Notes under the pieces: model-generated
What the model was told of the DNA's origin: nothing
Database searches by the model: none
What the model saw: only the letters and a program-made list of their open reading frames with translations
Part shown: piece by piece, positions 9,480-63,382 of the stretch
Position numbering within the stretch: position 1 is the stretch's first letter
Layout: every line of letters begins with the position of its first letter
Assembly: GCA_019218445.1 (NCBI GenBank)
Contig: JAHUUM010000008.1
Span: forward strand, 1-64,000
Direction: 5' to 3'
DNA: 64,000 nt
Source: Weeksellaceae bacterium TAE3-ERU29
Lineage (GTDB): Bacteria; Bacteroidota; Bacteroidia; Flavobacteriales; Weeksellaceae
Translations under genes and position numbers: made by a program

Positions 9480-9488
9480 GGGTTATTA

Positions 9489-10334: not shown

Positions 10335-10423
10335 ATCCTCAATTATATTTTTTATAAATTAATATCTACAAAAGTATTTCACTTAGTTTCTTTCTCCAAA
10401 TAGATAAAATTTTTTATTATCTT

Positions 10424-11926: not shown

Positions 11927-12563
11927 CAGTATAAAGTTTTAGATAATGAGTGGGCGGATATTCAGTGTTATGCTCGGGAATGGTGGCAATTTGATTATCT
12001 TCTCCAAAAATGGAAAGTTGTTTCCCGTCTTCCAAAACAACTTGATAATCAAAGCATCGCCTTTTTACTTGTGTGCTATTGATGAATTTCCACTCGGTAA
12101 AAACCAAAGGTGTTCCCTCCAAAGTAGTGTATTTGAGAGCATCGCCACATACGATGTTTTTATTCAAAATATGGCGAATGCTTTTCATTAAATGCGGATA
12201 GTCTCCGCTTGTTTTAAATGCCTTTGGGTAGTCTTTTCCTACCTTTTCGAAAAGACGATTTCGGCATTCTATGGCGTTGTCTTCCAAAAGTTCGACACCA
12301 TATATACTACTCACGCTTTTGATAAGGTGTGTATCGTATAAAATTTTGTCTTTCTTGTATTTGTCTTTTAGAATGAGTATTCTCCGATTGAGAATTTCGA
12401 TAAGGAAATTACCCGAACCACAGGCGGGTTCTAAAAAAGTGGCATCAATGCGTTCCACTTGGTCTTTTACCAAATCGAGCATTGCATTTACTTCTCGCTC
12501 ATTGGTAAATACCTCGCCGTGGTCAGCCACCCGCTTTCGGGATTTGACTTGTGTTTTTTCCAT
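11919..12563 (-). CDS. Partner methylase subunit with SAM motif I but no NPPY
   Basis: Protein of 214 residues if it starts at the ATG at 12563; an in-frame TTG at 12590 would add 9 residues (MERGSGYIA). I prefer the ATG because MEKTQVKSRKRVADHGEVFT looks like the family start. It has EVFTNEREVNAMLDLV then motif I FLEPACGSGNFL and NIVCGDAL, but no NPPY follows, so it cannot be a complete adenine methylase alone. It overlaps the large subunit by 8 bp, implying a two-chain enzyme. Confidence 0.75.
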   Translation of the reverse strand: MEKTQVKSRKRVADHGEVFTNEREVNAMLDLVKDQVERIDATFLEPACGSGNFLIEILNRRILILKDKYKKDKILYDTHLIKSVSSIYGVELLEDNAIECRNRLFEKVGKDYPKAFKTSGDYPHLMKSIRHILNKNIVCGDALKYTTLEGTPLVFTEWKFINSTQVKRRCFDYQVVLEDGKQLSIFGEDNQIATIPEHNTEYPPTHYLKLYTDE

Positions 12564-12705
12564 AGCAATATAGCCACTGCCTCGCTCCAAAACAGTGATT
12601 TTTATTGACTAAAAGCGTGGAACAAAAAGCCTTACTCTTAATTCACGGAAAAAACTATGCACACGGCAGAGGATAGCATAAACTACCCTCCACCTTAGGC
12701 TAACC

Positions 12706-12848
12706 TATTCTGTGTTGCTGTTTTAAAATTTGGTAGATTTAGGACAGCAGAATAAAGCTAACGCTTTTCTATATTTACAAAAAAGAAAGCGTGAGTAAAA
12801 CTCAACCCTGCTGTCCTAGGCTCTACCAAAGCCGTGCAACACAGAATA
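12706..12848. repeat. 143-bp composite inverted-repeat element
   Basis: Nested arms pair perfectly: 12706-12718 (TATTCTGTGTTGC) with 12836-12848; GGTAGA at 12732-12737 with TCTACC at 12822-12827; TAGGACAGCAG at 12740-12750 with CTGCTGTCCTA at 12808-12818; ACGCTTT at 12761-12767 with AAAGCGT at 12786-12792. The order of arms is collinear, so the whole can fold as one long stem with internal loops. It lies just upstream of the restriction operon. It could be a structured RNA, a MITE-like element or a recombination site. Confidence 0.7.
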
Positions 12849-12891
12849 AAGTAATAACCCACGCATATAGCGTGAGCATCAACTTTTTGTT

Positions 12892-12951
12892 TCTGTGTTG
12901 CTGTTTTAAATTTGGTAGATTTAGGGCAACAGAACAAAAGCTAACGCTTTT
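12892..12951. repeat. Second copy of the element's left arm
   Basis: About 60 bp nearly identical to 12709-12771 (both begin TCTGTGTTGCTGTTTTAAA and end GCTAACGCTTTTCT), with a few substitutions and one deletion. The matching right arm is absent, so this is a partial duplication. Between the two copies (about 12859-12874) is a small hairpin CACGC-ATATA-GCGTG. I found no reading frame in 12591-13017. Confidence 0.7.
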
Positions 12952-13017
12952 CTTTAATTTTTAATGTTTCAAAGATAGGGAATTATTATAGATAGAAATA
13001 AATTTAATTAAAAAAAT

Positions 13018-13050
13018 AAATCGTTCTAATATAATTTATTAGAACGATTT
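13018..13050 (-). terminator. Strong hairpin, probable displaced leuS terminator
   Basis: Perfect 14-bp arms AAATCGTTCTAATA / TATTAGAACGATTT flank a 5-base loop. On the minus strand the stem is followed by ATTTTTTTAATT. The nearest minus-strand gene upstream is leuS, whose stop is about 320 bp away, with the tandem repeats in between. A plus-strand terminator for an RNA from the inverted-repeat element is an alternative, since T-rich sequence also follows on that side. Confidence 0.6.
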
Positions 13051-13097
13051 AAGTTTTTTATTCTTCTTAATTTATTTTAAACTTTAAAATTTCATGC

Positions 13098-13370
13098 GAT
13101 ACTGAAACAAGTTCAGCATGGCAATCGTTATTCACACATCTGTCACTCTGAATTTATTTCAGAGTCTCATACTTAGAAACATCCCCTTAATCCCTTTAAA
13201 GGAAAAGTTTAAAACTTATGTGATACTGAAACAAGTTCAGTATGACAATCGTTATTAACACACATCTGTCACTCTGAATTTATTTCAGAGGCTCTAAAAA
13301 CATCCCATTAATCCCCTTCAAAGGGGAAGTTTTAAAACTTATGTGATACTGAAACAAGTTCAGTATGATA
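13098..13370. repeat. Tandem repeat of about 124 bp, 2.2 copies
   Basis: The phrase GATACTGAAACAAGTTCAG starts at 13098, 13222 and 13345 (spacings 124 and 123). Each full unit continues with CACTCTGAATTTATTTCAGAG (an internal palindrome) and a CCCTTNAAAGGG-type palindrome. The third copy is truncated and runs straight into the leuS stop codon. It resembles intergenic palindromic repeat families of flavobacteria. No coding potential seen. Confidence 0.8.
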
Positions 13371-13371
13371 A

Positions 13372-16206
13372 TTACATTACAATATTCACAATTTTACCGG
13401 GTACAACTATCACTTTTTTAGGTGATTTTCCTTCTAAATACTTTTCGGTTTGTTCGTTTGCCAATACTGCTTTTTCTACTTCTTCTTTAGATAAATCTAA
13501 AGGTAAATTCATAGTAAAACGCATTTTTCCGTTAAATGAAATCGGATACTCTTTAGCATCTTCTTTCAAATATTTTTCTTCAAAAATCGGATAAGGTTGT
13601 GTCGTAACTGTTCCCTCATTTCCTAACTGATGCCATAATTCTTCTGCAATATGCGGTGCAAACGGCGAAATTAAAATTACCAACGGCTCTAAAATCGCTT
13701 TTTTGTTACATTTTAATTTTTGTAAATCGTTCACGGCAATCATAAAGGCAGAAATAGACGTATTGAAAGAGAATTTCTCTATATCGTCTGTTACTTTCTG
13801 AATTAATGTATGCAATACTTTTAATTCTTCTTTGGTAGGCTCTGTATCTGAAATGTTTAAGTTTTCTCCTTCATAGAACAAACGCCAAAGTTTTTTAACA
13901 AATCCATTTACTCCACTTAATCCATTAGTTATCCAAGGTTTAGCTTGTTCAATCGGACCTAAAAACATTTCGTACATACGTAATGTATCTGCTCCATATT
14001 CCTCGCAAATATCATCAGGATTTACTACATTAAATTTAGATTTAGACATTTTTTCTACCTCACGAGAAACATAGAATTTTCCGTTTTCAGAGAAAATAAA
14101 TTCTGCATCTTTTAAATCATCTCGCCATTGTTTAAATCTTTCTGTATCTAAAGAATTGCTTGAATCTACCAAATTAACATCAGCATGAACTGCAACAGTA
14201 TCATAATGGTCTTTTCTGTCAGCAGAAACGTATTCGTTACTATCTTTAATTCTGTAAACAAAAGCACTTTCGCCCAAAATCATTCCTTGATTAATCATTT
14301 TTTTGAAAGGCTCTTCTACTTCAACATATCCTATATCTTTCAAGAATTTAGTCCAAAAACGACTGTATAATAAATGCCCAGTAGCGTGTTCACTTCCACC
14401 TAAATATAAATCAACATTTTGCCAATAATTTAAAGCCTCTTTAGATGCCAATTCGGTGTTATTATTAGCGTCCATGTATCTGAACTGATACCAAGAACTT
14501 CCTGCCCAACCCGGCATTGTATTTAATTCTAACGGGAAAACAGTTTTTTCATCGATTTTATCATTAGAAACTACCTTTTTATTTTCGGTATCCCAAGCCC
14601 ACTGAGTAGCTCGTCCTAATGGTGGCTCTCCGGTTTCGGTTGGTAAATATTCATCAACCTCAGGCAATTCCAACGGAAGATTTTCCTCTCCTATTGATTT
14701 TGGAATTCCGTTGTCAAAATACATTGGTACGGGTTCTCCCCAATAACGCTGACGGCTAAATACGGCATCTCTTAATCTGTAATTTATTTTTCCTTTTCCT
14801 ACGCCTAATTCTTCTAATTTTTCGATAGCTTTTGGCAATGCATCTTTTACGGTTAATCCGTTTAAGAAACCTGAATCTTTTAACGGAATATTTCCTGTTT
14901 TATCTGAGTACGCCTCCTCGCTGATATTTACTCCTTCAAAAATATTAGGAATTTCTATATCAAAAGTTTTGGCAAAAGCATAATCTCTCTCATCTCCCGC
15001 AGGAACCGCCATTACAGCCCCCGTTCCGTAACCTGCCAAAACATAATCTGCAATCCAAATAGGTACTTCTTTTCCATTCACAGGGTTAATGGCATACGCT
15101 CCTGTAAATGCTCCCGTAACTCGCTTGGTATCTGCCATACGCTCGCGCTCACTACGTTTAGAAGTTTCTACGATATAATTTTCAACTTCAGTTTTTTGCT
15201 CTTCGGTTGTAATTTCTTTTACTAAATCATGCTCAGGTGCGAGTACCATAAATGAAACACCAAAAATAGTATCTGCTCGAGTAGTAAATACTTCGATAGA
15301 ATAATCGTTTTCGTGTTTTACTTTAAAATTAACAGAGGCTCCTTTGGATTTTCCTATCCAGTTTTTTTGAGATTCTTTTATGGCATCTGTCCATTCTAAA
15401 GCTGATTCGTTATAAGCTATTCCATTTAATAATCTTTCTGCATAGGCTGTGATACGCATCATCCATTGTGTCATTTTTTTGCGTTGCACAGGGTGTCCTC
15501 CACGTTGAGAAACTCCGTTAACTACCTCATCATTAGCTAATACTGTACCCAATTCAGGACACCAGTTTACCTCAGCTTCGGCTAAATAAGTAAGTCTGTA
15601 TTTTAATAATATTTCTGATTTTTCCTTTTCGGTAAAATTATTCCATTCTTCTGCTGTGAAATTTGGTACATTATCATCACAAGCTACGTCTAAATCTGAA
15701 TTTCCTTTTTCTTCAAAATATTTAATTAAATCAGAAATCGGTTTAGCTTTTTGGTCTTTATTACAATAAAATGAATTAAATAATTGTAAGAAAATCCATT
15801 GAGTCCATTTATAATAATCAGGATTAGAAGTTCTGATTTCTCTGTCCCAATCAAAAGAAAATCCTATTTTATCTAATTGTTCTCTATAACGTGCTACGTT
15901 TTCTTTGGTAGTAACCGCAGGGTGCTGACCTGTTTGTATCGCATATTGCTCTGCCGGTAATCCGAAAGAATCGTATCCCATTGGGTGCAATACATTGAAT
16001 CCTTTGTGTCTTTTATAACGAGCGTAAATGTCTGATGCTATGTATCCTAACGGGTGTCCTACGTGTAATCCTGCTCCGGACGGATAAGGAAACATATCTA
16101 AAACATAAAACTTTGGTTTGTCTGATTTATCTTTAGCTTCATAAATCTTATTTTCAGCCCAAAACTTTTGCCATTTAGGCTCTATTTCATTCGGATTGTA
16201 TTGCAT
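13372..16206 (-). CDS. leuS: Leucyl-tRNA synthetase
   Basis: Class I aminoacyl-tRNA synthetase that charges tRNA-Leu. The HIGH-type motif is HVGH at 48-51 within [22 protein letters not shown] lies near residue 719, and the CP1 editing domain is visible ([21 protein letters not shown]). The 944-residue length is longer than E. coli LeuS (860), as is common in Bacteroidota. Its 3' end abuts the tandem repeats. Its upstream region faces rpiB divergently. Confidence 0.97.
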
Positions 16207-23360: not shown

Positions 23361-25346
23361 ATGAAAAACATTTTAGAAGAAAATCCATCACTAAAGAAAA
23401 ACAAAATCATTTTAAAGAAGGCTAAAGATGAATTAGAGTTATCTCAAATAACTCGAGAGGAAAGAATTCCTGTAGAGATATGCGAAACTGCAGCAGAAGG
23501 TTCTAAGCTTGCGGCGAAAGAAGTAGCTGAGCTTATTAAGGAAAAGCAATCTTCCGGAGAGAAGTGTGTTTTAGGATTAGCTACAGGTAGTAGTCCTATT
23601 GCTATGTATGATGAGCTTATAAGAATGCATAAAGAAGAAGGTTTAAGTTTTGAAAATGTAATTACATTTAATTTGGATGAATACTATCCTATGGATAAAG
23701 AATCTCCAAATTCGTATAACTTCTTTATGAATGAGCATTTATTTAAACATATAGATATAAAACCTGAAAATATAAATATTCCGGATGGAACAGTTTCTCT
23801 TGAAAACTTGAAACAAAGTTGCCGTGAATATGAGAAAAAAATAGATGCAGCCGGAGGAATTGATTTACAAATCTTAGGAATTGGTAGAACCGGGCATATC
23901 GGTTTTAATGAGCCGGGATCTAATATGAATTCATATACAAGACTTGTTTCTTTAGATGAGTTAACGATTAGAGATGCAGCGAAAGATTTCGGAGGAATTG
24001 ATAATGTGCCAAAAGGGGCTATCACTATGGGGGTTGGTTCTATATTCAAAGCAAGAAAAATAATTTTATTAGCTTGGGGAGATAAGAAATCGGCAATCGT
24101 AAGAAAAGCGGTAGAAGGAAAAGTAAAAGATGATGTTCCTGCAAGTTTCTTGCAGAGACATGAAAATGCTAAATATATTATAGATATGGATGCTGCGGGA
24201 GAACTTACAAGAGTGAAAACTCCATGGAAAGTAGGTTCTTGCGATTGGACTCCAAGTTTGGTAAAAAGAGCGGTAGCTCAACTTTGTTTAGCGACAGGAA
24301 AACCAATCTTAAAGTTAACTAATAAAGATTATACAGATCATAATTTAGATGAGTTGGTTGTTTCTTACGGGTCTGCTTATAATGTTAATATACAAGTTTT
24401 TAATGAGCTTCAAAATACGATAACAGGTTGGCCCGGAGGGAAACCAAATGCAGATGATACAAAACGTCCTGAAAGAAGAGAACCGGCTCAGAAAAGAGTA
24501 ATTGTATTCAGTCCACATCCGGATGATGATGTAATTTCTATGGGAGGAACGCTTAGAAGATTAGTAGAACAAAATCATGATGTTCACGTAGCTTATCAGG
24601 TTTCCGGTAATATTGCAGTGGCTGACTATGAGTTATTACGACCAATGCTTTTAATGAAGAATTACTTAGAAGAAAATGGCGATACTGCATCTAAAACGTA
24701 TAAAAATCTCACAGAATATTTAAGTCAAATTGGAGAGCAAGAAACTTTTGAAAAAGTAACTCCAAATATTCTTCACTTAAAAGGATTATTGAGAGAAGAA
24801 GAAGCAAAATCAGGATGTAGACACGTAGGTGTGAAAGATGGAAATGCCCATTTCTTAAGACTTCCGTTCTATGAAACAGGAAAAGTAAAAAAAGATGATT
24901 TAAGCCAAAAAGATGTTGATATTGTAAAAGAATTTATTCGTTCTATAAAACCACATCAAATATTTGCAGCAGGTGATTTAATGGATCCTCATGGAACTCA
25001 TAAAGTTTGTTTAGAAGCTATTTTCTTAGCATTAGATCAAATCAAAGAAGATGGAGATGAGTGGTTAAAAGATTGCTGGGTATGGATGTATCGTGGAGCA
25101 TGGCAAGAGTGGCCGATCAATGAGATTGAAATGGCTGTACCAATGAGTCCAAGTGAATTAAGAGCAAAAAGAAATGCAATTTTAAGACACCAATCTCAAA
25201 TGGAGGCAGCTCCGTTTATGGGAAGTGACTCTCGTTTATTCTGGCAAAGAGCAGAGGATAGAAATAGAGAAACGGCAGAGTTATATAATAAATTAGGATT
25301 AGCAGAATACGAAGCTATGGAAGGTTTTGTAAGATATATTCCTTAA
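23361..25346 (+). CDS. nagB: Glucosamine-6-phosphate deaminase fused to PIG-L/LmbE-like domain
   Basis: Protein of 661 residues. Residues about 30-285 are NagB: LATGSSPIAMYDEL, DEYYPM and GRTGHIGFNEPGS (175-187), which converts GlcN6P to fructose-6-P and ammonia. Residues about 375-650 form an LmbE-like deacetylase fold starting SPHPDDD (about 383-389), with DPHGTH further on. This two-domain form is characteristic of Bacteroidota. The second domain may deacetylate an amino sugar, but that is inferred. It opposes the salvage kinase/nucleotidyltransferase pair. Confidence 0.93.
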   Translation: MKNILEENPSLKKNKIILKKAKDELELSQITREERIPVEICETAAEGSKLAAKEVAELIKEKQSSGEKCVLGLATGSSPIAMYDELIRMHKEEGLSFENVITFNLDEYYPMDKESPNSYNFFMNEHLFKHIDIKPENINIPDGTVSLENLKQSCREYEKKIDAAGGIDLQILGIGRTGHIGFNEPGSNMNSYTRLVSLDELTIRDAAKDFGGIDNVPKGAITMGVGSIFKARKIILLAWGDKKSAIVRKAVEGKVKDDVPASFLQRHENAKYIIDMDAAGELTRVKTPWKVGSCDWTPSLVKRAVAQLCLATGKPILKLTNKDYTDHNLDELVVSYGSAYNVNIQVFNELQNTITGWPGGKPNADDTKRPERREPAQKRVIVFSPHPDDDVISMGGTLRRLVEQNHDVHVAYQVSGNIAVADYELLRPMLLMKNYLEENGDTASKTYKNLTEYLSQIGEQETFEKVTPNILHLKGLLREEEAKSGCRHVGVKDGNAHFLRLPFYETGKVKKDDLSQKDVDIVKEFIRSIKPHQIFAAGDLMDPHGTHKVCLEAIFLALDQIKEDGDEWLKDCWVWMYRGAWQEWPINEIEMAVPMSPSELRAKRNAILRHQSQMEAAPFMGSDSRLFWQRAEDRNRETAELYNKLGLAEYEAMEGFVRYIP

Positions 25347-52746: not shown

Positions 52747-53328
52747 ATGTTATTACAAGAGAAGTTTAAAGACAATCTAATTATATTGGGTTCTCAATCG
52801 CCACGCAGGAAAGAATTATTAGCAGGTTTAAAATTGAATTTTAAGACGATTCCATTAAATGCTGATGAGACTTACTCCAATGATTTAAAACGAGAGCAAA
52901 TCACGGAATATTTATGTAAAGTGAAGGCAAAGGCTTTTAAATTTTCATCTGATAAAGAGATTTTAATAACATCTGATACCATTGTTTGGCTGAACGGCAG
53001 AGCAATAGAAAAGCCAAAGGATAGAGGAGAGGCAATAAAAATGCTGTCCGAATTAAGTGGGAATACTCATGAAGTTATAACATCTGTCGGGATAACAAGT
53101 ACAGAAAAACAAGTTATTTTTTCTGATATTACAGAAGTTACTTTTGGTGATTTAACACAGGAAGAAATTGCGTTTTATGTAGACAATTTTAAGCCGTTTG
53201 ATAAGGCTGGTTCTTACGGTGTACAAGAATGGATTGGTTACATGGGTGTGAAAAACATGAACGGAAGTTATTTTACGGTAATGGGTTTACCGCTGTATCC
53301 GCTTTATAATGAATTGAAAAGATTTTAG
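52747..53328 (+). CDS. maf: Maf-family nucleotide pyrophosphatase
   Basis: Protein of 193 residues. LGSQSPRRKELL at 14-25 is the Maf signature, with SDTIVWLNGRAIEKPKDRGEAIKML and the C-terminal DKAGSYGVQEWIGYMGVKNMNGSYFTVMGLP. Members hydrolyse non-canonical nucleoside triphosphates (m5UTP, dTTP-like). Its stop overlaps the WYL gene's stop by 4 bp (convergent). Confidence 0.93.
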   Translation: MLLQEKFKDNLIILGSQSPRRKELLAGLKLNFKTIPLNADETYSNDLKREQITEYLCKVKAKAFKFSSDKEILITSDTIVWLNGRAIEKPKDRGEAIKMLSELSGNTHEVITSVGITSTEKQVIFSDITEVTFGDLTQEEIAFYVDNFKPFDKAGSYGVQEWIGYMGVKNMNGSYFTVMGLPLYPLYNELKRF

Positions 53329-54335
53329 CAACTATAACTATTCTTAGCTAATTTAATCCTCTCTGCTATTCTTTCTTTAAGAGATATAGGAGCAATTACT
53401 TTTACTTGCTCTCCAAAAGATAAGATAAGTTTTTCTAATTCAAAATTAGGAATAACATTTATCTTAACCTCTAACCCTGAATCTGTATTTTGTTCTTTTT
53501 GGCTTGAATGAAGAGGTTTAGTTACCACATAAGGTGCGACTTCCGAAGTAAATTGCAACACAATTTCTTGAACCTCTATACCCACAGGACGGGTAACTCC
53601 TATTAAATCAGAAAAATATTCTTCCCAATTAATTGTGGAGTTTTGATATTTTACATCTGTTTCTTTTATAGACTCTATACGGTCTAATGCTAAATTCCAA
53701 TTAGGAACTTGGGCATCTTCATTTAAACCAAAAGCAAACCAACGATTATTAAATTGCTTTAAATAATGAGGATGAAAAGTAATTTCATAGGAATGTTCAC
53801 TTTTAAAATCTTTATATTCTACAATCAATACTCTCCTATTAGTAATCGCGTTAAAAAGCGGAGTCAAATGATGAAGACCGGCTAACTTGATATTGCCTTC
53901 AAAACTAATGATTTTATCTTCTCGAGGAATCAACCCAAATTTAGTTTCTAGCATTGGAATCATCTCATTTACCCATTCAAATTGAGGTGTTCCAAAAAAT
54001 CGCGAAAGAATCTGTAATGCTGATTTTATTTGTTCCGCTTCCGATTCATTTAAAGGCTGATTATTGATAGAGAAAGAAGTATCCTCATATCTATAATACA
54101 TTTTTTTTCCAAAACGAATTCTTTCAAGTGGAATAGACCAGCCTTGCTCACTTTCCATAAATTTAATATCATTAAAGAGCTGTCTTCGCTGTATTCCTTC
54201 ATTATTAAAGTCTGCTTCATATAATGCGTTATTGCATTCCTCCAATAAATCTTCTATAAAATACATTCTACCAGTATTACGGAAACAACGGTCTAACGTT
54301 TGATAACGAATTAAAGCATTTTTATTTATGGACAT
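53325..54335 (-). CDS. WYL-domain transcriptional regulator
   Basis: Protein of 336 residues. Residues 1-75 are a likely winged HTH (YQTLDRCFRNTGRMYFIEDLLEECNNALYEADFNNEGIQRRQLFNDIKFME). The middle holds the WYL fold (RRVLIVEYKDFKSEHSYEITFHPHYLKQFNNRWFAFGLNED), and the C-terminus is the WCX extension (NVIPNFELEKLILSFGEQVKVIAPISLKERI). WYL regulators often control defence islands and sense nucleic acid. It is divergent from the retron, with 376 bp between. Confidence 0.9.
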   Translation of the reverse strand: MSINKNALIRYQTLDRCFRNTGRMYFIEDLLEECNNALYEADFNNEGIQRRQLFNDIKFMESEQGWSIPLERIRFGKKMYYRYEDTSFSINNQPLNESEAEQIKSALQILSRFFGTPQFEWVNEMIPMLETKFGLIPREDKIISFEGNIKLAGLHHLTPLFNAITNRRVLIVEYKDFKSEHSYEITFHPHYLKQFNNRWFAFGLNEDAQVPNWNLALDRIESIKETDVKYQNSTINWEEYFSDLIGVTRPVGIEVQEIVLQFTSEVAPYVVTKPLHSSQKEQNTDSGLEVKINVIPNFELEKLILSFGEQVKVIAPISLKERIAERIKLAKNSYSC

Positions 54336-54353
54336 TTTATAAAAAATTATCTA

Positions 54354-54361
54354 CAAAGATA
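54354..54361 (-). promoter_or_regulatory. -7 promoter element of the WYL gene
   Basis: The minus strand reads TATCTTTG, 18 bp upstream of the ATG at 54335, facing away from the retron promoter about 70 bp to the right. Confidence 0.55.
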
Positions 54362-54430
54362 AATTTAATTCCCTATAAAACAAATGATTAATTTATTTCT
54401 AAAAAATATTTTAAAGTTTTATATTTGTAA

Positions 54431-54470
54431 TGCAAATAGAGTGCACACAAGGATTTTACATTTGCATCAA
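54431..54470 (+). promoter_or_regulatory. Retron promoter with repeated operator-like sites
   Basis: TGCAAA (54431) and TGCACA (54442) are spaced 11 bp, then 6 bp further TTTTACATTTGCATCAA (54454-54470), containing the -7 element TACATTTG. The same layout, TGCACA-N5-TGCACA-N6-TTTTATATTTGCATCAA, is found at 59614-59653. Transcription would begin near 54470, just before the a1 arm of the retron RNA. Confidence 0.7.
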
Positions 54471-54697
54471 GTTCTTTGAAACACCTGTCAAAAGATATTG
54501 ATTTCGGATGTTGGTTTCAATTTTAAAATTGAAACAGATCGGCATCTTCTCTACTCGGTAGAGGCTGAATGTTAGGAGGTAAATTCAATATAGATTTAAG
54601 ATATATTTTTATATTTTAATCCTATCTAATTTACCCCCACTAATTTATTTCAAGTTAATTTATACAAAAAGAATATCGATAGGTGTTTTCAAAGTTT
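54471..54697 (+). ncRNA. Retron msr-msd non-coding RNA
   Basis: Between the promoter and the RT gene. The a1 arm 54474-54489 (CTTTGAAACACCTGTC) pairs with a2 at 54678-54694 (GATAGGTGTTTTCAAAG) with one wobble and one bulge; the pairing then extends past a 4-base bulge with GATATT (54494-54499) and AATATC (54672-54677). Inside are two msr-type hairpins, 54507-54546 (perfect 11-bp core GTTTCAATTTT/AAAATTGAAAC) and 54549-54563 (CTCTAC-TCG-GTAGAG), then a long msd-like stem (54572-54585 with about 54628-54643). The priming guanosine was not assigned. Confidence 0.88.
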
Positions 54698-54711
54698 TTA
54701 AATTTTGAGCA

Positions 54712-55986
54712 ATGAAAATAGAACAACAACATATTGACTTTGTAAAAGAAGAATTTGCAAAAATACAAACAAAAGAAGATTTGTTGTGTTTATTAAATAA
54801 TGCAAAGAAAATTATATATAAAGGAAAATGCACACCTATCAGTTTGCGACAACTTACTTATTTTGCAAATCCAAATTTCTGTAAAGAACGTTATCGTTCT
54901 TTTACAATCAAGAAAAAGTCTGGAGCTGATAGACTTATTCACGCTCCAGAAAAAGGACTAAAATCTATTTTGCGTCCGCTTAATTTTATCTTGCAATGTA
55001 TAGATGATCCACATAAATCGGCAACCGGTTTTGTGTTAGACAAATCAATTGTAGATAATGCCAAAAAGCATATCGATAAGCCTTATGTCTATAATATTGA
55101 CATCAAAGACTTCTTCCATTCTTTTACCAAAAGTTGGGTGAAATATGGATTTATGACAGCTCCTTTTAACCTTGGAAAAGAAAAAGAAGATTTAGCCTTC
55201 TTATTGGCTAGTTTATGTACACATCCTTTTGAAATAGATGGGAAAATTCAGAATGTACTACCACAAGGAAGCCCAACTTCTCCTACAATTACAAATATTC
55301 TTTGTAAACGTTTAGACCGAAGGTTATCAGGTCTTGCTAAACGTTTTGGTGCTACTTATACACGTTATGCTGATGATATTACATTCTCGGCAATGTACAA
55401 TATTTTCAAGGAAGAAGAGAATCCTCAGCTTAATGAAAAAGGCCGTTATGATAATTTTATAGCAGAATTAGAACGCCTAATTACTCAAGAAAATCTCATC
55501 ATAAAAGAAGAAAAAGTTAGATTACAGAATAAAGATGCACGTCAAGAAGTAACTGGATTAGTAGTAAATGACAAAGTAAATGTCCGTCGTCGTTATGTAA
55601 AACAATTGCGTATGTGGCTATACTACTGGGAGAAGTACGGCTATAATAAAGCTAGTGAAATTTTTAGTCGTGATTATAAAGCAGATAAAGGACATGTGAA
55701 AAAAGGTACTCCTAACTTTGCTAATGTTTTAGACGGAAAACTTCAATTTTTAAAAATGGTAAAAGGCGAACAAGATGCTACTTATAAGAAGTTGAAGGAA
55801 AGATTTGATGTGTTAAAAGCAGAAATTGACCCCATAAATGAAGTATTAGATATATGGGAAGAAGAGGGTATTGAAAAGGCTATGGATTTTTATTCTAAGA
55901 GAAAAAAGACTCAACCTAAAAAGAAAAAAAATCCTGTAGTACGCACTATGACAATGGAAAAGCTTATGGCTCTCTTTGGTAAATAA
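54712..55986 (+). CDS. Retron-type reverse transcriptase
   Basis: Protein of 424 residues. Order of motifs: RSFTIKKKSGADRLIHAP (motif 1-like), VYNIDIKDFFHSF (motif A region), LPQGSPTSPTITNIL (motif B), YTRYADDITFS with catalytic YADD at 219-222, and EVTGLVVNDKVNVRRRYVKQLRMWLYYWEKYG (the retron VTG motif region), then LDGKLQFLKMVKGEQDATYKKL. It would copy the msd part of the RNA immediately upstream. The C-terminal tail (385-424) is very basic. The next gene starts 23 bp later. Confidence 0.95.
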   Translation: MKIEQQHIDFVKEEFAKIQTKEDLLCLLNNAKKIIYKGKCTPISLRQLTYFANPNFCKERYRSFTIKKKSGADRLIHAPEKGLKSILRPLNFILQCIDDPHKSATGFVLDKSIVDNAKKHIDKPYVYNIDIKDFFHSFTKSWVKYGFMTAPFNLGKEKEDLAFLLASLCTHPFEIDGKIQNVLPQGSPTSPTITNILCKRLDRRLSGLAKRFGATYTRYADDITFSAMYNIFKEEENPQLNEKGRYDNFIAELERLITQENLIIKEEKVRLQNKDARQEVTGLVVNDKVNVRRRYVKQLRMWLYYWEKYGYNKASEIFSRDYKADKGHVKKGTPNFANVLDGKLQFLKMVKGEQDATYKKLKERFDVLKAEIDPINEVLDIWEEEGIEKAMDFYSKRKKTQPKKKKNPVVRTMTMEKLMALFGK

Positions 55987-56009
55987 TTTTAAGCATTAAA
56001 AGTTTAATT

Positions 56010-57212
56010 ATGAATAAACAACAACAGAAGCAAAAGTTTATAGAAGAACTTTTAAAAAAATCTCATCGCTCAAACCCTTCGAATGTTGAGCGTATTTTAA
56101 GACTTGCTTCTAAGGAAGCTTTTAGAGTTTCAAATATTCAAACAAAAGAACAAAGGATAAGCTCTGAAATTCCAAGAGATGAGGAAATGGAGAGTAAAAA
56201 TTCTACAAATAAAAAAGAAAATAAGAAAAAGATACATAATCCTAAAAAAGTAGTAGGTTTTTTAAAGTTCTTTACTTTAGATAACTCAAATATAAAACTT
56301 AGTACACATTTGTGGGATCAAAGACTATATACAACTTATGAAGATTTTATTACTAAACTAGAAAAAGATCTTAAAGAACATAAGTTATATGATTTACAAA
56401 ATTATAGCTATAATTTATATTGGAATAAGCTATTTCCTTTTCTTAAACAAGATAAACTTACAGATATACAAAAGGAAGGAGATTATGGTTGGGGAAAACA
56501 TAAAATAAAAATAGGGTGGCAATTTCCTGATATCATAAGAGAATGGTGTAAAACACATTTTAATGACAAAGGAGAGTTAGCAAAACAGCCTTTTTCTATG
56601 GAAATTCCTCAAGAATTAAAACCGGAAAAGCCTATTGCAGGAAAAACTATTAAATATTTTGAAGATGTAGTAAATCTATTTAAAAAAGAGATAGAATTCC
56701 GTGATAATGATTTGTATAAAGAATTCCGTATAATTACTAAGAGAGACTTAAAAGCTGAGAGTTTTGATATTAGTGGACTTGAATCATTGAGGGGTTGTAG
56801 TTTCTATACAAATACAGAGTATGTGTCAAAAGCTATTAGTCGTGTTTTTAAAATGATAGATAGTCGCCCAGAAAGCCCTAGAATTTCTATTTTTTGTGAT
56901 TATTTAGAAGAAAGCAATGAATATCATATAAAAATAACTCATGTAAATTCATTCTGTAATAAAGATTTAAGACACCCTAAACTATTACTCCAAAATAATG
57001 AAGATAGCGGCGATATAGGAGCTATTAAAAATGATTTAATGAGCCTCTGTGACTTTTCTATTATATCTAAGTTTAAAAAAGATAATAAAATTGTTTTTGC
57101 AGAGATAGAATACCTTTACAAGGGGGTAGATAACAAAAATTATAAACCAAAAGTAAATATTATAGAGAGTGAACCAGAAGGATTCACATTTAATTTTAAA
57201 TTCCCTGTTTAA
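56010..57212 (+). CDS. Retron-linked protein, possible histidine-kinase-like ATPase
   Basis: Protein of 400 residues. Residues 1-80 are very basic and charged. The C-terminal half has a possible GHKL-ATPase layout: a helix VSKAISRVFKMID in the N-box position (without its usual asparagine), the strand ISIFCDYLEESNEYHIKITHVNSF, then GDIGAIKNDLMSLCDFSIISKF like the G2-type box (GxG replaced by GDIG), and a final strand. This is a weak inference. It shares one base with the stop of the next gene (57212), which suggests translational coupling and one complex. Confidence 0.5.
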   Translation: MNKQQQKQKFIEELLKKSHRSNPSNVERILRLASKEAFRVSNIQTKEQRISSEIPRDEEMESKNSTNKKENKKKIHNPKKVVGFLKFFTLDNSNIKLSTHLWDQRLYTTYEDFITKLEKDLKEHKLYDLQNYSYNLYWNKLFPFLKQDKLTDIQKEGDYGWGKHKIKIGWQFPDIIREWCKTHFNDKGELAKQPFSMEIPQELKPEKPIAGKTIKYFEDVVNLFKKEIEFRDNDLYKEFRIITKRDLKAESFDISGLESLRGCSFYTNTEYVSKAISRVFKMIDSRPESPRISIFCDYLEESNEYHIKITHVNSFCNKDLRHPKLLLQNNEDSGDIGAIKNDLMSLCDFSIISKFKKDNKIVFAEIEYLYKGVDNKNYKPKVNIIESEPEGFTFNFKFPV

Positions 57213-57829
57213 TGAAAAAAATAATATTAATAGAAGACAGACCTAAGAGACAAACTCTTTTTTTAGGAGATAACAATGTAAAAAAACTGGAATCTATAGA
57301 AAATCTTTATCTTCCAAAAGAAGACAAATGTCGATTATACATGGAAAAAATTAACTCTAATGAAATAGAGGAACTTAAAGAATATGATATGATTTTGATT
57401 CATAGGTCCAGTCTCAAGAGAGAAGGATTAGAAAATATTGAAATATTCTGTAAGGAAGAGAGTAAAGATTTAATTTTATTTTCGGGGGGGAACTCTCAAT
57501 ATATCTACTCTAATGAACCCTATCAAAATTTAACAATTAATTCAAAAGACTTTTATTCTGAAAATTTAATTGGTTTTATAACGAACTATATAAATGGAAA
57601 CTCTGAAAGCCTACTCGAATTAATTTATAAATCTAATTGGAAATTAGGAGAAATGATGAAATATCGTTTACTCAATGAAAAATATCATCAAGAAAAAGAT
57701 ATAGAGATTCAAATAGAAATAGAAGATAAACTTAATATGATAAAAGAAACCCTCTCTTTACAAAGGAATAATAACAATTATAAAGAAGAAATTGATAGAA
57801 ACATAGAAAAAATAATTAAATCATTATGA
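57212..57829 (+). CDS. Pseudo-receiver-like protein with coiled coil
   Basis: Protein of 205 residues. The N-terminal part follows the receiver pattern: KKIILIEDRP (beta1, acidic pair), EYDMILIHRS (beta3, with the phospho-aspartate replaced by histidine), KDLILFSGG (beta4). Residues about 135-205 are polar helices, probably a coiled coil. It contains a run of seven G (57484-57490) within codons for S-G-G. The gene starts at the last base of the previous stop region and overlaps the next gene by 4 bp. Confidence 0.6.
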   Translation: MKKIILIEDRPKRQTLFLGDNNVKKLESIENLYLPKEDKCRLYMEKINSNEIEELKEYDMILIHRSSLKREGLENIEIFCKEESKDLILFSGGNSQYIYSNEPYQNLTINSKDFYSENLIGFITNYINGNSESLLELIYKSNWKLGEMMKYRLLNEKYHQEKDIEIQIEIEDKLNMIKETLSLQRNNNNYKEEIDRNIEKIIKSL

Positions 57830-59604
57830 ATGCTCTCTTAATACACAATGATAATCTACCTACAGATCTCACAGAAGGGTTTAAAGATAGACTTCTATTC
57901 AACATATCTCAAGCAACTACAATGGAATATGATTTCTCTTTTGACAGAGAAGCTCACAACCAATTAAAAGAAGTACTTAAAGATAAGCTTTTTGATGTTA
58001 TATTTATACCTTATACTTTATCAAATCAAAATTACCTTGAACTATCAGGCTTGCGTTTAGCATTACATATCAGACTAACTAAAGAATTTGGACATCACAA
58101 AGTCCCTATCGTATTCATAGGTCATGAAACAGCAGAACAGATAATGAAACTTTCAGATTTGGGAACGATTCTATTTACTTCCGGCATATTTACAACTAAT
58201 AAATTTGATATTGAGGATATAAAAAAACAATATAAATGGATTTTAAATGAATGGAAGCCTGAAAAAGAAGCTAAACTAAATAATTTTGAATACAATCAGT
58301 TTCTTGATAAAATCCAAATTAAGCCTGCGGGAAACTACCAATCTCACCATAGTATTGATAACGAATTGACTCTTGCCAGGTGGTCTGAATATCTAAAATG
58401 CGATGATAATATACCTGAAGTTAAAAACAATTTGAATTTCAATCTTTATTTTAAATATAGCAGATGTTTAAATCCACTAACTCCCATAAAGAATCCCATT
58501 AATCCATACTGCATAAATATAAAAAAAGCAAAAATTTTATTAATAGATGATGAAGCAGAAAAAGGTTGGCAAAAATTTTATGATACATTTTTTAAAAATA
58601 GTAAGTCATCAATAGAATTTGATTATTTGAAGGATATTGATTTTAAAACTTTATCCCAAGAAGAAATAATAAAAGAAGCTGTCAAAAGAGTTAGAGATTT
58701 TGATCCGAATATCGTCTTATTAGATTTAAGATTATGCGATGATGATTTTGATGATAATATAGATCCTAAAAAACTTACTGGATATAAAATTACAAAGCAA
58801 ATAAAAGATATTAATAGAGGAATACAGGTTATCATTACAACCGCTTCTAACAAGGTATGGAATTACGAAACATTATATGATGAAGGTATAGATGGATATA
58901 TTCTAAAAAATACTACCTTTAATATAGCTGAAGATATCAAAAACTTAAGAAATGTCATCTCAAAAAGTATTGAGAGAAAATATTTGAAAGAGTTCTATAA
59001 AAAAATGAGTTTGCTAAAAAATAACTTCAAAGAACTTTTTTTAAATGATGATTATACACTATCTGAAATAGAAAATTTCCTTAATATATCCTATAATTTA
59101 CTAGAACAGGTAAAACCAAATGATAACACAACCAATAAATATTTTAACTATGCTTTTTTACAATTATATTTGATTATTGAACTATTAGCGAATCGACAAG
59201 ATTTCTTAAAAGTAGAAGGCAGAGAAAATTGTTCTATTGAGATAGAAAATAAAGATATTTATATTCAAAAAGTATATAATGAAGGCGTAAAACGTGCTAT
59301 TAAATTTGATGAAAAAAATCATTATTACACCTTAAAACAAGATGATAATCCTGAAAAGACAAATCCTGACCTAAACTTCAAAATATCTTCTTTACTTATA
59401 TTTAGATATGGTAATGAGAACTCATCTGTCAAGGGTTGGCCTAATATTAATAAAAATAGAAATACAAAAGTATCCCATTATAACAATAAGCAAAAAGGAG
59501 AAAATATTAAGATTTGTGATATAAATGAAATTCTTGACTTTTTAGTTTATATATCAGATCAAGATAATGTAAATAATAAAAATATAGATAACGGGTTACA
59601 TTAA
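57826..59604 (+). CDS. Receiver-domain protein with HEPN-like C-terminus (predicted effector)
   Basis: Protein of 592 residues. Residues 1-140 form a pseudo-receiver (MNALLIHND, FDVIFIPYT). Residues 235-385 form a complete receiver: AKILLIDDE (D241, D242), IVLLDLRL (phospho-D300), VIITTAS (T338/T339) and GYILKN (K361). The C-terminal part is helical with WPNINKNRNTKVSHYNN, which matches the HEPN RNase motif R-N-x4-H (R545, N546, H551). HEPN proteins cut RNA in toxins and defence. Transcribed 4-bp overlapping with the preceding gene. Confidence 0.75.
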   Translation: MNALLIHNDNLPTDLTEGFKDRLLFNISQATTMEYDFSFDREAHNQLKEVLKDKLFDVIFIPYTLSNQNYLELSGLRLALHIRLTKEFGHHKVPIVFIGHETAEQIMKLSDLGTILFTSGIFTTNKFDIEDIKKQYKWILNEWKPEKEAKLNNFEYNQFLDKIQIKPAGNYQSHHSIDNELTLARWSEYLKCDDNIPEVKNNLNFNLYFKYSRCLNPLTPIKNPINPYCINIKKAKILLIDDEAEKGWQKFYDTFFKNSKSSIEFDYLKDIDFKTLSQEEIIKEAVKRVRDFDPNIVLLDLRLCDDDFDDNIDPKKLTGYKITKQIKDINRGIQVIITTASNKVWNYETLYDEGIDGYILKNTTFNIAEDIKNLRNVISKSIERKYLKEFYKKMSLLKNNFKELFLNDDYTLSEIENFLNISYNLLEQVKPNDNTTNKYFNYAFLQLYLIIELLANRQDFLKVEGRENCSIEIENKDIYIQKVYNEGVKRAIKFDEKNHYYTLKQDDNPEKTNPDLNFKISSLLIFRYGNENSSVKGWPNINKNRNTKVSHYNNKQKGENIKICDINEILDFLVYISDQDNVNNKNIDNGLH

Positions 59605-59613
59605 TTATTACTA

Positions 59614-59653
59614 TGCACATCTACTGCACAGTTCTATTTTATATTTGCATCAA
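59614..59653 (+). promoter_or_regulatory. Promoter of the helicase/TPR pair, copy of the retron promoter
   Basis: TGCACA at 59614 and 59625 (11-bp spacing), 6 bases, then TTTTATATTTGCATCAA (59637-59653) with the -7 element TATATTTG. The ATG at 59665 is 11 bp after the block. Same spacing as 54431-54470, so the same factor may bind both. Confidence 0.7.
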
Positions 59654-59664
59654 ATAAGAAAAAG

Positions 59665-61887
59665 ATGACTATTTTTGACTACTTTCAACATATCACTTTA
59701 ACGAATGACCAACGTAATGCAGTTGAGCAGTTCGCTTCTTTTTTAGAAAGCGATAAAAGGATTTTTATCCTTAAAGGATATGCAGGGAGTGGTAAAACAA
59801 CCCTACTAAAAGGCTTTGTTCAGTATCTGGAAGCATTAGAAAAAAACAATTACCTAATGGCACCTACGGGAAGAGCAGCAAAAGTAATTAACCAAAAAAC
59901 AAAGTTTAAAGCAACTACTATTCATAAAAGAATCTACAGCCTTGATGGTTTAGAAGAAATAGAAGAAAAAAATAATTCTGATGAGGATAAAGATGTGTCT
60001 TTTATCTATCAATATAAACTCAGAAATGATAATGAGGCTCATCACTCTATTTTTATTGTAGATGAGGCTTCTATGATTTCTAATGTGCTAAGTCAAGGAG
60101 AATTCTTCCGATTTGGAGATGGATATTTACTTGATGATTTAGTCAGTTATAGTCAAGTTGCAACCCCAAATGCAGAAAGTAAAATTATTTTTGTGGGAGA
60201 TCCCGCTCAGTTACCACCTATCCGAATGAACTTTTCACCGGCTTTGGATGAAAAGTACTTAAAAGAGAAATACGACTTAGATGCTGTTTCTGTAGAAATG
60301 AAAGAGGTAAAGCGTCAAGATACAAACAATGGAATATTACATTCTGCTACTAACCTAAGAAAATGCCTTACTTCCGGATATTTTAATGATTTTGACTTGA
60401 GAGCAAATAATAAAGATATTTTCAATCCCTCTTATGAGAATTTTATTGAAACGTACAAAGCACAAACTAAGAAAAAAATCATTATTTGCTATCAAAATAA
60501 GACAGCTCTTGGTCTAAATAAAACCATTAGAGAAAATAAATTTGGGAAAGAGTTACCTATTCAGCCCTCTGACATTGTCATCATAGGAAATAATAATTAC
60601 AATCTTGATATAATGAACGGAGAGTTTGCTGTAGTTGTAGATGTTGACTCAAATACTGAAAAAAGAGAGATTAGTTATAATAAGAGAGGTGGGGGAAAAG
60701 AACGAGTAACTTTAGAGTGGAGAAAAATAACTCTCAAGATGCGTAGTGAAGACAACGGAATAAAGATAGTAGAAGGATTAATGTTAGAAAACTATCTTTA
60801 CGGAGATAATTATTTAACAAGAGAAGAACAAATCGCTCTTTATATAGATTTTAAGAATAGAAATCCTAAACTAAAACCTAAAACAGAACCATTTAAAGAG
60901 TCCTTAAAGAGTGATAAATATTTTAATTGTATTCAATTAAAGTACGGATATGCCATTACTTGTCATAAGGCTCAAGGTGGAGAATGGGATAATGCTTTTG
61001 TTTTTTGGGATAAAGGCACAAAAAAAGGATTTAATTTTTGTGCATCAGAACAGACGATTGTTGGAAAAGACAATGCAGACTTTTACCGATGGGCTTATAC
61101 TGCGGTTACGCGAGCATCAGAAAAACTATTTTGCATCAATCCACCTCATTTTTCTTCTCATTCTGAAATGAATTTTATTGATATACAAGTTCAAAAAGCT
61201 TTTGATAAATTGACAGGAACATCATCTCATTCCATTGAATTAGAATTAACGGAAGATATCAATAATGAACTTAAAAAGTTTCATTTAGAGGATGCTCCCC
61301 TCCCTATTCAAGATCATTTTATTGAGCGTTGGTATCATTTAAGAAAGCATTATATAGATATTTTCAGCTGGGAAAGAGTCGGTTATGAAATCCGTTATTT
61401 ATTCAAAAGAGGTGATGAAACAGCTTCTTTTAAATATTGGGTAAACGGAAAAAATGAATTTAAAAGTAATTTCCAAAAAATTCCAAAACAAACTTCTTCT
61501 GATGAGTTATTCAATACTATTTCAAAAATCCTTGAAAGTAGTGAGAAAATTGTCGTAAACCGAAATAATGCAGAAGGAATTTTAACCCAAGTAGCTTTCC
61601 ATTTTGAAATAGAAGAAAACAGCCCTTTCTTAAATAATTTATATGATCATCTATCTGAAATCTTAAAAGAAAAAGGTATCTTTATAACAGATGTAACACA
61701 TTTAGATTATAAAGAAAGATATACTTTTGAAAAGGGAAATACTTCTTGTGTTATTGATTTTGAATATAATGGAGGGGGATTTTTTGGAAGAGTATTACCT
61801 CTTGAAAAGAAATGCAATAATCAAGAAATATTAGACACTGTAAAACAGGCTATAAATCACATCAAATACCCAGAATATGTCAAATAA
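59665..61887 (+). CDS. SF1B helicase, RecD/Pif1/Dda-like
   Basis: Protein of 740 residues. Walker A GYAGSGKTT at 38-46, motif Ia APTGRAAKVI, motif II VDEASM (132-137), motif III GDPAQLPPI (178-186), motif V region TCHKAQGGEWDNAFVFWD (432-449) and motif VI YTAVTRASEKLF (478-489). This is a DNA helicase fold. Residues about 510-740 have no motif known to me. It overlaps the TPR gene by 11 bp. It may unwind phage or retron DNA; the role in defence is inferred from position and promoter. Confidence 0.88.
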   Translation: MTIFDYFQHITLTNDQRNAVEQFASFLESDKRIFILKGYAGSGKTTLLKGFVQYLEALEKNNYLMAPTGRAAKVINQKTKFKATTIHKRIYSLDGLEEIEEKNNSDEDKDVSFIYQYKLRNDNEAHHSIFIVDEASMISNVLSQGEFFRFGDGYLLDDLVSYSQVATPNAESKIIFVGDPAQLPPIRMNFSPALDEKYLKEKYDLDAVSVEMKEVKRQDTNNGILHSATNLRKCLTSGYFNDFDLRANNKDIFNPSYENFIETYKAQTKKKIIICYQNKTALGLNKTIRENKFGKELPIQPSDIVIIGNNNYNLDIMNGEFAVVVDVDSNTEKREISYNKRGGGKERVTLEWRKITLKMRSEDNGIKIVEGLMLENYLYGDNYLTREEQIALYIDFKNRNPKLKPKTEPFKESLKSDKYFNCIQLKYGYAITCHKAQGGEWDNAFVFWDKGTKKGFNFCASEQTIVGKDNADFYRWAYTAVTRASEKLFCINPPHFSSHSEMNFIDIQVQKAFDKLTGTSSHSIELELTEDINNELKKFHLEDAPLPIQDHFIERWYHLRKHYIDIFSWERVGYEIRYLFKRGDETASFKYWVNGKNEFKSNFQKIPKQTSSDELFNTISKILESSEKIVVNRNNAEGILTQVAFHFEIEENSPFLNNLYDHLSEILKEKGIFITDVTHLDYKERYTFEKGNTSCVIDFEYNGGGFFGRVLPLEKKCNNQEILDTVKQAINHIKYPEYVK

Positions 61888-63382
61888 AGTTACAGAATTA
61901 AGGAAAGCAGGAAAACTAAGCGAAGCCCTAGAATTAGGTTTACAAAATTTAGAAGAAGCTCCCGAAAATATATGGAATAAACGTGCTATTTCGTGGGTGT
62001 ATTATGAGTTTTTAAAAAATAATAAAGAGGCTGAAAATTTTGATATATTCAAAGAGAACTTAATCAAAATAAAAGAGCTAAACCTACCCAAAGATGAGAA
62101 TATGTTATTTGACAACTGTGCTTGGCAAATAGGGAGTTTTGTCTTTGCGTTACAAAAAGAAAAACAAGTTGATTACTCCAAAATAAATGAGATTTTTGAA
62201 ATCATTAAAGATTTTCATTTTTCAAGACCTTCTGAAGGTTTTTCTTTCTTGTACAAGGCATTTCATAAAGCTTATAAAAACAAAGAAGAATACTTTACAT
62301 TTGCCGATTGGTGGGATTTTAATAACTTTAGAGAAGAAGACTATCAAAAAGAAGAGATAAACGGGCGAAAAATAATGGCTGTTGCAGAACAAGCCTACGT
62401 TGCTTATGCTAAAAAACTATTAGAAGGAGAGGCTACTGATGCTTTTGGTATATTTAAAAAAGTAAACAAGGAAAAAGTAAAAGAATTTCTCCCTAAATTA
62501 GAGAAATTGAATGAGAGTCATCCGGAATACCAATATCCTCCCTATTATATTGCTAAATTGCTTTTAGAATTAGGAGACAAAGAAAATATTTTATCTGCAT
62601 TTCTTCCTTTTGCTAAAAAGAAGAAAAATGATTTTTGGGTATGGGAATTATTAGCGGACGTCTATACTAACAAAGATATTCAATTTGCTTGTTATTGCAA
62701 AGCTCTAAGTTTAAAAACACCTGAGGATTTTTTAGGTAAACTAAGACTTACCTTTGCAAAAGTTTTAACAAACAAACAGATGTATAATGAAGCTAAAACC
62801 GAAATAGAAAAAGTACGTCAAACGTATGAAAATAATGAATGGCGAGTTCCACCTCAAATAGCACAATGGCAAACAGAGGATTGGTATAAAACAGCTCAAG
62901 CAAAGCCAAATAATAGAGATTTATATTCTAAGCATAAAGAGATTGCAGAAGAACTTCTATTTCAAGATATTCCTGAGGAAGTTGTAGCTGTTGAATATGT
63001 AAATAAAGAAAAAAGTATTATTAATTTTATAAAAGATAAAAATAAACATGGTTTCTTTAAATATAAAAATCAAGTTACCCCAAAAGTAGGAGATATTTTA
63101 AAAGTTCGACTTAAAGGGAATGAAGAAAATAATTTTTATCAAGTTCAAACACTGAGAAAAGCAGACATTAACGAAACTTCAGAAGCTATCAAGAGCTTCG
63201 AAGGGAAACTAAAAATTATCCCTCAAGGTTTCGGCTTCATTGAAGATGTTTTTATAGACTCAGGAATCATAAATAGGTCTAATCTATTAGATGGTAGTTT
63301 TTATAAAGGAAGAGCCATTCTTTCATTCAATAAAAAGAAAAAAGAATGGGGTTGGAAAGTTCTGAATGTAGAAACTGATTAA
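61877..63382 (+). CDS. TPR-like protein with C-terminal OB-fold (cold-shock-like) domains
   Basis: Protein of 501 residues. Helical repeats at about 1-340 (LRKAGKLSEALELGLQNLEEAPENIWNKRAISWVYYEFLKNN). Two OB-like stretches follow: INFIKDKNKHGFFKYKNQVTPKVGDILKVRLKG and FEGKLKIIPQGFGFIEDVFIDSGIINRSNLLDG, the second being close to a cold-shock domain. It likely binds nucleic acid and works with the helicase, to which it is translationally coupled by an 11-bp overlap. Confidence 0.8.
   Translation: MSNKVTELRKAGKLSEALELGLQNLEEAPENIWNKRAISWVYYEFLKNNKEAENFDIFKENLIKIKELNLPKDENMLFDNCAWQIGSFVFALQKEKQVDYSKINEIFEIIKDFHFSRPSEGFSFLYKAFHKAYKNKEEYFTFADWWDFNNFREEDYQKEEINGRKIMAVAEQAYVAYAKKLLEGEATDAFGIFKKVNKEKVKEFLPKLEKLNESHPEYQYPPYYIAKLLLELGDKENILSAFLPFAKKKKNDFWVWELLADVYTNKDIQFACYCKALSLKTPEDFLGKLRLTFAKVLTNKQMYNEAKTEIEKVRQTYENNEWRVPPQIAQWQTEDWYKTAQAKPNNRDLYSKHKEIAEELLFQDIPEEVVAVEYVNKEKSIINFIKDKNKHGFFKYKNQVTPKVGDILKVRLKGNEENNFYQVQTLRKADINETSEAIKSFEGKLKIIPQGFGFIEDVFIDSGIINRSNLLDGSFYKGRAILSFNKKKKEWGWKVLNVETD

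Follow-up and report, generated by a model that had tools for sequence, protein, structure and literature searches.

A TOTE helicase and TPR-OB protein beside a retron under a duplicated operator-promoter in Weeksellaceae bacterium TAE3-ERU29

The stretch of DNA analysed here (the window) comprises 64,000 nucleotides of contig JAHUUM010000008.1 from Weeksellaceae bacterium TAE3-ERU29. One block in it encodes, in this order, a WYL regulator, a noncoding RNA (ncRNA), a retron reverse transcriptase (RT), a histidine kinase, a protein of 205 amino acids (aa), a receiver protein with a HEPN-like region, a helicase, and a protein with TPR and OB domains (TPR-OB). The helicase and the TPR-OB protein are a TOTE module by their domain composition. 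The likeliest reading of the sequence is that this pair forms a co-regulated arm of a HEPN-type retron and engages nucleic acid. The locus joins TOTE to a retron, a copy of one switch before each, and includes a defined ncRNA as well as a probable HEPN effector. The earlier note on this DNA had left a choice between an independent system and a part of one large conflict system. The second is favoured by the single block, the duplicated switch and the association of one TPR-OB clade with one RT clade, while partial autonomy remains, as seen in the promoter of the pair, in RT-less pairs and in pair-less retrons. That the pair is a module of a composite retron defence unit, its recognition and remodelling arm, with a HEPN RNase as the effector in trans, is proposed here with about even confidence.

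Both open reading frames (ORFs) were confirmed on the plus strand, at 59665–61887 (helicase, 740 aa) and 61877–63382 (TPR-OB, 501 aa). They overlap by 11 bp, and the translational coupling claimed by the earlier note is plausible. The helicase is of the RecD2/Pif1-like SF1B type, again as claimed: Pfam AAA_30, UvrD_C_2, and PIF1 are matched, as is part of RecD2, far below the cut-off of its model. The motor begins at residue 1, with no N-terminal effector extension. The C-terminal 230 residues, taken before to lack a known motif, actually contain two TBP-TOTE (TATA-binding-protein-like) domains (PF22721, 127.1 bits for the whole helicase), the first at 61306–61533 (50.7 bits) and the second at 61621–61851 (residues 653–729, 86.3 bits). 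In TPR-OB, DUF7017, S1CSD-TOTE-1, and S1CSD-TOTE-2 (PF22708, PF22707) score over cut-off, and TPR models only below it. Its AlphaFold2 model (mean predicted local distance difference test, pLDDT, 91) has a helical array and then all-strand segments at 367–428 and 438–499, and the best PDB matches of the model are TPR proteins. The helical repeats and two OB domains noticed before are thereby confirmed. Both proteins match candidate defence models of PADLOC over their full length, the helicase PDC-M16A (E 4.8e-286) and TPR-OB PDC-M16B (E 4.1e-217). Because the helicase tail consists of TBP-TOTE domains and the partner of TPR/DUF7017 and S1/CSD-TOTE domains, the two are a TOTE pair.

The pair directly follows the retron set, as the earlier note said. 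Its further claim, a simple promoter shared with the retron, is rejected because the helicase has an operator-promoter copy of its own. This second copy, TGCA-N7-TGCACA ... TTTTATATTTGCATCAA, lies at 59614–59653 (plus strand) and ends 11 bp 5' of the helicase start. The first copy lies at 54431–54470 (plus strand), directly 5' of the ncRNA. The two share 32 of 46 bases. The operator TGCA-N7-TGCA is seen at 54431, 59614, and 24140 (24140–24154), with 0.43 occurrences expected in the window, and the third site does not match the compound pattern with the promoter element. The operator with the following TTTTAnATTTGCATCAA has exactly two matches in the 2.37 Mb genome, with up to three mismatches allowed, one before the ncRNA and one before the helicase; the reversed control has none. 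Both sites served to define the pattern, so the result says only that there is no third. The TAnnTTTG element is similar to the -7 box of Bacteroidota.

The operator also appears in related loci. Upstream of the helicase, its distance is 37–38 bp in the window, L008, L009, and L010 and about 440 bp in L039 and L062. Of 16 such loci, 6 have it no more than 500 bp upstream of the helicase, versus none of 18 RT-less loci with readable upstream DNA (L023, with 1 bp upstream, was left out). An operator lies 241–337 bp before the RT in 14 of 16 RT loci, L005 and L060 being the exceptions, and 18–19 bp before the WYL gene in L001, L010, and L060. The WYL/WCX gene (PF13280 and PF25583) is divergent, at 53325–54335 on the minus strand, and is conserved beside the RT in many homologous loci. 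The WYL protein is the putative regulator of both promoters and would bind the operators.

Loci were collected from two anchors. The TPR-OB/TBP anchor gave 10 loci from genome contigs (by patterns favouring close relatives), regions of 19 genomes, and 7 plasmid or phage stretches. The RT anchor used 395 genomes of the phylum and 395 of the class, in overlapping draws, from which 22 regions were taken. Short pieces of other loci (L011–L019) were left out of the trees, the distance comparison, and the ncRNA model search. An RT stands beside the pair in 14 loci: the window, L001, L002, L003, L005, L007, L008, L010, L029, L039, L040, L059, L060, and L062. In the TPR-OB tree, built without L009 (partial) and L035 (49 bits), these 14 RT-linked members and L004 form one clade with support 84/84. 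The helicase ORF of L004 starts 373 bp from the contig end, and its upstream DNA is cut off. All 14 treed members of the clade with readable upstream DNA adjoin an RT of one clade. Two partial, untreed loci, L009 and L037, have the receiver-HEPN gene before the helicase, and the RT would lie beyond the contig end. RT and TPR-OB distances among 13 RT-linked loci correlate with a Mantel r of 0.81, a value reached in none of 5000 permutations; for this comparison ORFs were trimmed at 700 aa, and L040 was omitted as a near-copy of L039. Shared descent of whole loci explains part of the distance correlations.

Counting from the RT gives further linkage. Twelve genomes besides the own have an RT match of 360 bits or more. 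One of them, L058 (G557), could not be evaluated, its contig stopping after the receiver gene; L061 was kept in the count despite a truncated upstream side. The count leaves out L048 (334 bits, at a contig end), L049, L050, L067, and all weaker matches. The pair is present in 4 of the 11 evaluable loci (L029, L059, L060, and L062). With the own genome set aside, TBP-TOTE scores over cut-off in 12 of 394 genomes; against this background, chance would hardly give 4 of 11 (binomial P 2.4e-4), the two fractions coming from partly different genome draws. For co-occurrence, proposed earlier as a check, the outcome is that an RT adjoins all 14 readable members of one TPR-OB clade, that 7 of the 11 RT loci are without the pair, and that many TOTE pairs are RT-less.

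RT-linked helicases are also alike at the N-terminus. At most 33 aa precede the motor in all 14 pairs, versus 180–255 aa in 9 of 19 RT-less helicases; in four of these that were tested, the extension is NERD (L006 and L035) or DUF4145 (L042 and L045). Four loci (L020, L023, L027, and L036) have a TOTE helicase with no partner matching the TPR-OB model, and L028, L031, and L038 have weak TBP matches and no helicase match. In the window no nuclease is fused to the helicase, and a HEPN-like motif is found elsewhere in the operon.

The RT gene (54712–55986, plus strand, 424 aa) contains RVT_1 and matches PADLOC retron RT models, best those of types XI (343 bits) and XII (319 bits); on type IX models it scores 145 bits. 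Retron models of NCBIfam are also the best, below their cut-offs. It has the YADD, NAxxH, and VTG motifs of retron RTs. In an alignment of 11 sequences, N116, A117, H120, Y219, A220, D221, D222, T281, and G282 are invariant, and V280 of the VTG motif is replaced by A in L001 and L002. The RT is physically linked to the kinase in L007, where positions 3067–5244 encode both in one ORF of 725 aa. L047 has a comparable ORF of 671 aa at 2951–4966, its kinase part judged from the translation only.

The gap between the WYL and RT genes is strongly conserved among distant loci, and the RNA it would encode (54469–54702, plus strand, ends approximate) is a candidate retron msr-msd. Its two ends pair over 10 positions as a long-range stem of the a1/a2 type, and two conserved hairpins are inside. 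Across 15 loci, 97.8% of 315 cells are paired versus 81.0% in shuffles and 28–51% in slid controls, the structure being derived from the same alignment that scored its pairing, which favours it. Both sides are changed in 13 of 21 base pairs. A covariance model (R1) built from 10 loci finds seven others at E < 1e-4 (L003, L046, L048, L058, L059, L060, and L062) and has a single match in the own genome. No RT-less TOTE locus and no locus of another retron type falls below E 0.8. L061 and L064 were without the upstream DNA for this search. In the 64-kb window no Rfam family reaches its gathering score, and the ncRNA stretch has sub-threshold matches only.

These data bear on one alternative, in which the pair serves the production of multicopy single-stranded DNA (msDNA), its helicase and OB domains helping the RT by processing ncRNA, cDNA, or hybrid. 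It is consistent with the fact that the OB-domain protein, not the motor, tracks the RT, and with a relative of TPR-OB near the CRISPR primase-polymerase CAPP, Cas2, and Cas1 in a type III-B island of Runella. L046, however, has a retron of the same clade with the same ncRNA and no pair, and the alternative is considered unlikely. The island (L041, Runella sp. SP2 plasmid NZ_CP031032.1, 4489–13479) has the order WYL, 704 aa protein, CAPP, Cas2, Cas1, 473 aa protein, and TPR-OB relative; the helicase model matched no TOTE helicase in it.

Three genes lie between RT and helicase, all on the plus strand. The first encodes a histidine kinase of 400 aa (56010–57212; HisKin-conflict, PF22561, E 2.1e-48). 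The second (57212–57829, 205 aa) has no Pfam match and is receiver-like by eye only; homologs are found at the same place in L002, L003, L007, L010, L039, L040, and L058, and weakly in L047. The third (57826–59604, 592 aa) has iREC and receiver domains (PF22563 and PF00072) and a C-terminal HEPN-like region. None of the three has a PADLOC match. The structure matches listed for the AlphaFold2 model of the 592 aa protein are receiver domains only, with Z 12.3 to Spo0F. Its C-terminus carries the motif RNTKVSH at aa 545–551. The HEPN RNase motif is defined as R-x4-6-H. All 14 loci with RT and TOTE have a protein with an RN...H-type motif between RT and helicase: in nine it is the C-terminus of the receiver protein, and in five a separate ORF of 245–295 aa (RD in L029). 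All 14 receiver proteins and all 11 short ORFs that follow the RT contain the pattern R[NDS]x2-5H, versus shuffled expectations of 1.5 and 1.4. This pattern was chosen after viewing the sequences and widened for L046 and L060 (R-x3-H only); the stricter R[NDS]x3-5H is present in 14 of 14 and 9 of 11. The ORFs of L066 and L067 entered the count by their position after the RT, not by profile match, and the short ORF of L066 resembles DUF4145 below cut-off (E 0.095). The HEPN-like protein is a probable effector, an RNA-cutting suicide protein, as far as the motif and its position suggest. In L060, the HEPN-like ORF and the TOTE helicase are separated by a gene for a YhcG/DUF1016 PDDEXK nuclease (5605–6642).

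Several results weigh against a composite unit. The second operator is missing in 10 of the 16 related loci. The helicase follows the other proteins less closely: among the same 13 loci, r is 0.35 for RT and helicase (46 of 5000 permutations as high) and 0.475 for helicase and TPR-OB (13 of 5000). These weaker correlations arise because two helicase lineages have been exchanged, L002, L010, L039, and L062 against the rest, the TBP domains being kept in all four. On the RT tree, for which the ORFs of L007 and L047 were trimmed at 480 aa, the TOTE label needs six changes, at least four of them forced by well-supported branches, which implies repeated loss or gain of the pair. The pair is absent in seven of the 11 RT-anchored loci (L046, L047, L061, L063, L064, L065, and L066), in which the HEPN-like partner is present. 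It is therefore dispensable for a retron of this clade, and the idea that the RT always needs TOTE is rejected by these seven. Of 16 phylum-draw genomes with any TBP match, two have this RT (the own genome and G308) and 14 lack it, so most TOTE pairs do without it. The N-terminal contrast between helicases is not absolute either, because the remaining 10 of the 19 RT-less helicases are short as well.

The same holds for the effector and the ncRNA. R[NDS]x2-5H is also present in 61 of 565 other ORFs. AlphaFold2 gives pLDDT below 50 over residues 456–592 and no confident C-terminal fold, and no Pfam model matches the HEPN-like region over cut-off. A sequence search of PDB with the HEPN-like alignment A6 gives three matches, with E 0.38 or worse. 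Profile-profile comparison of A6 and A7 gives a probability of 0.4%, and the sole aligned stretch is the RN..H motif. The HEPN fold is putative. The ncRNA model is borderline in L047 (E 0.085) and has no match in the outer RT-clade members L063, L065, and L066, which it accordingly does not cover.

Several of these facts are shared by a serious rival, in which an independent TOTE system stands beside the retron, acts alone on phage nucleic acid, and forms a second layer of the island with only the WYL regulator in common. Under this explanation, the promoter of the pair, the RT-less TOTE pairs common in other loci, some on plasmids, and the same-clade retrons without the pair would be natural, as would the fact that in some loci (e.g., L039, L059, and L062) the two units stand further apart, with additional small ORFs in the gap. 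It accounts less well for a TPR-OB clade whose 14 readable members all adjoin the RT, for the RT/TPR-OB correlation (in part a matter of common descent), and for the lack, in RT-linked helicases, of the fused domain that 9 of 19 RT-less helicases carry. An independent system is possible, and less probable than the composite unit. What is observed is a one-sided dependence: retrons of this clade occur without the pair, and in other loci RT-less pairs are common. The kinase/receiver set and the TOTE pair are each present in some retrons of this clade and absent from others, which shows modular exchange.

For the composite unit, the following mechanism is proposed. The WYL protein would repress both promoters until infection. 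The RT would make msDNA from the ncRNA, and an RNA-DNA-protein complex together with the kinase/receiver relay would keep the HEPN RNase off. The helicase, through its TBP-like domains, and TPR-OB, through its two OB domains, might engage phage nucleic acid or the msDNA hybrid. Infection would free the HEPN RNase, cellular RNA would be cut, and growth would stop. The HEPN-like protein would supply in trans the effector that the helicase does not carry as a fused domain. A more elaborate version is only tentatively suggested: msDNA, the histidine-kinase/receiver relay, and the TBP/OB helicase complex might jointly gate one HEPN RNase, with the pair as a sensor of phage nucleic acid, msDNA as a decoy or licence, the receiver as a phospho-controlled safety, and one WYL protein setting all of them through duplicated operators.

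The block is flanked by a Maf gene (52747–53328) and an OlsF-like gene (from 63398). In the congeners G001 and G002 these two genes abut, their matched ends being 62 and 67 bp apart, which indicates that everything from WYL to TPR-OB was gained or lost together at a variable site; individual events within the piece may also have occurred. In the third congener, G003, 6.2 kb lies between them. Because G003 holds other genes there (L069, 1235–7158; by eye, amino-acid decarboxylase and transporter genes), the site appears to take up varied cargo. The resemblance of the motor part to RecD2 could suggest housekeeping genes for DNA repair or recombination, placed beside the retron by chance. The full-length PADLOC candidate-defence matches, the TOTE domains, the site empty in two of three congeners, and the presence of any TBP-TOTE match in only 5 of 149 genomes of relatives (own included) speak against it, and this explanation is rejected as highly improbable. 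Likewise, the pair was not found mostly in core-genome contexts lacking links to defence, an outcome that the earlier note had named as decisive against it.

Some other loci are also described here. In the Chryseobacterium plasmids NZ_CP033935.1 (L039) and NZ_CP094531.1 (L040), the set RT-kinase-receiver-helicase-TPR-OB is plasmid-borne, with WYL and PD-(D/E)XK nuclease genes downstream. A further helicase gene of the same family, or a fragment, lies upstream of the RT at L059:10672–11382 and L065:14288–15622; the one in L065 is shorter, with no TBP-TOTE among the matches listed (25 families). In phage records TPR-OB has one match, in an unannotated scaffold labelled as phage (L044, MT835724.1), where an RT-less TOTE pair follows a NusG-like gene (9201–13374). 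Among viral contigs no RT relative was confirmed by a pattern search, which reaches close relatives only.

TOTE systems, PDC-M16, retrons, and HEPN retrons are each already known. To our knowledge, the functions of TOTE systems are so far only predicted, and few retron effectors are understood. The locus could be a concrete setting for asking what TBP/OB domains recognise, how msDNA might control a helicase, and how a two-component relay might gate a retron. Among the papers searched, from 2022 on, none was found that names a retron and TOTE together; RT-linked TOTE may already be listed in the founding TOTE paper of 2022. TOTE stands for TPR, OB, TBP, and Effector conflict systems (Aravind, Iyer et al. 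2022, as cited in PMC12458937). The present pair resembles these systems in its TPR protein with two S1/CSD (OB) domains, its TBP-like domains, and its strong scores to TOTE-named Pfam models. It differs in having no effector fused to the helicase and in the retron RT, ncRNA, and kinase/receiver/HEPN-like genes alongside. Many stand-alone TOTE pairs have a candidate effector domain, NERD or DUF4145, on the N-terminus of the helicase, unlike this one. PDC-M16 (A/B) is likewise a candidate of two adjacent genes, here overlapping, and its matching models cover only helicase and TPR-OB; a literature search found no paper naming it.

On the retron side, types XI and XII have the RT fused to a protease or TIR domain in the naming of PADLOC. 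Their RT models are the closest here, yet the 424 aa contain RVT_1 alone by Pfam, with no fused protease or TIR. The type IX retron Kva2 combines RT and ncRNA with a HEPN RNase effector in abortive infection, in which a phage trigger releases the HEPN RNase (PMC13405049). It also includes a winged-helix protein, and its HEPN lacks the canonical motif (PMC13405049). No winged-helix gene is present in 53325–63382, where no room is left and none of eight proteins has such a Pfam match. The likeness to Kva2 lies in the combination of retron RT, ncRNA, and HEPN RNase effector, the last being HEPN-like by motif only in the present locus. The present locus differs in its canonical R...H motif, in an RT nearer to the type XI models, and in the addition of the kinase/receiver set and the TOTE pair.

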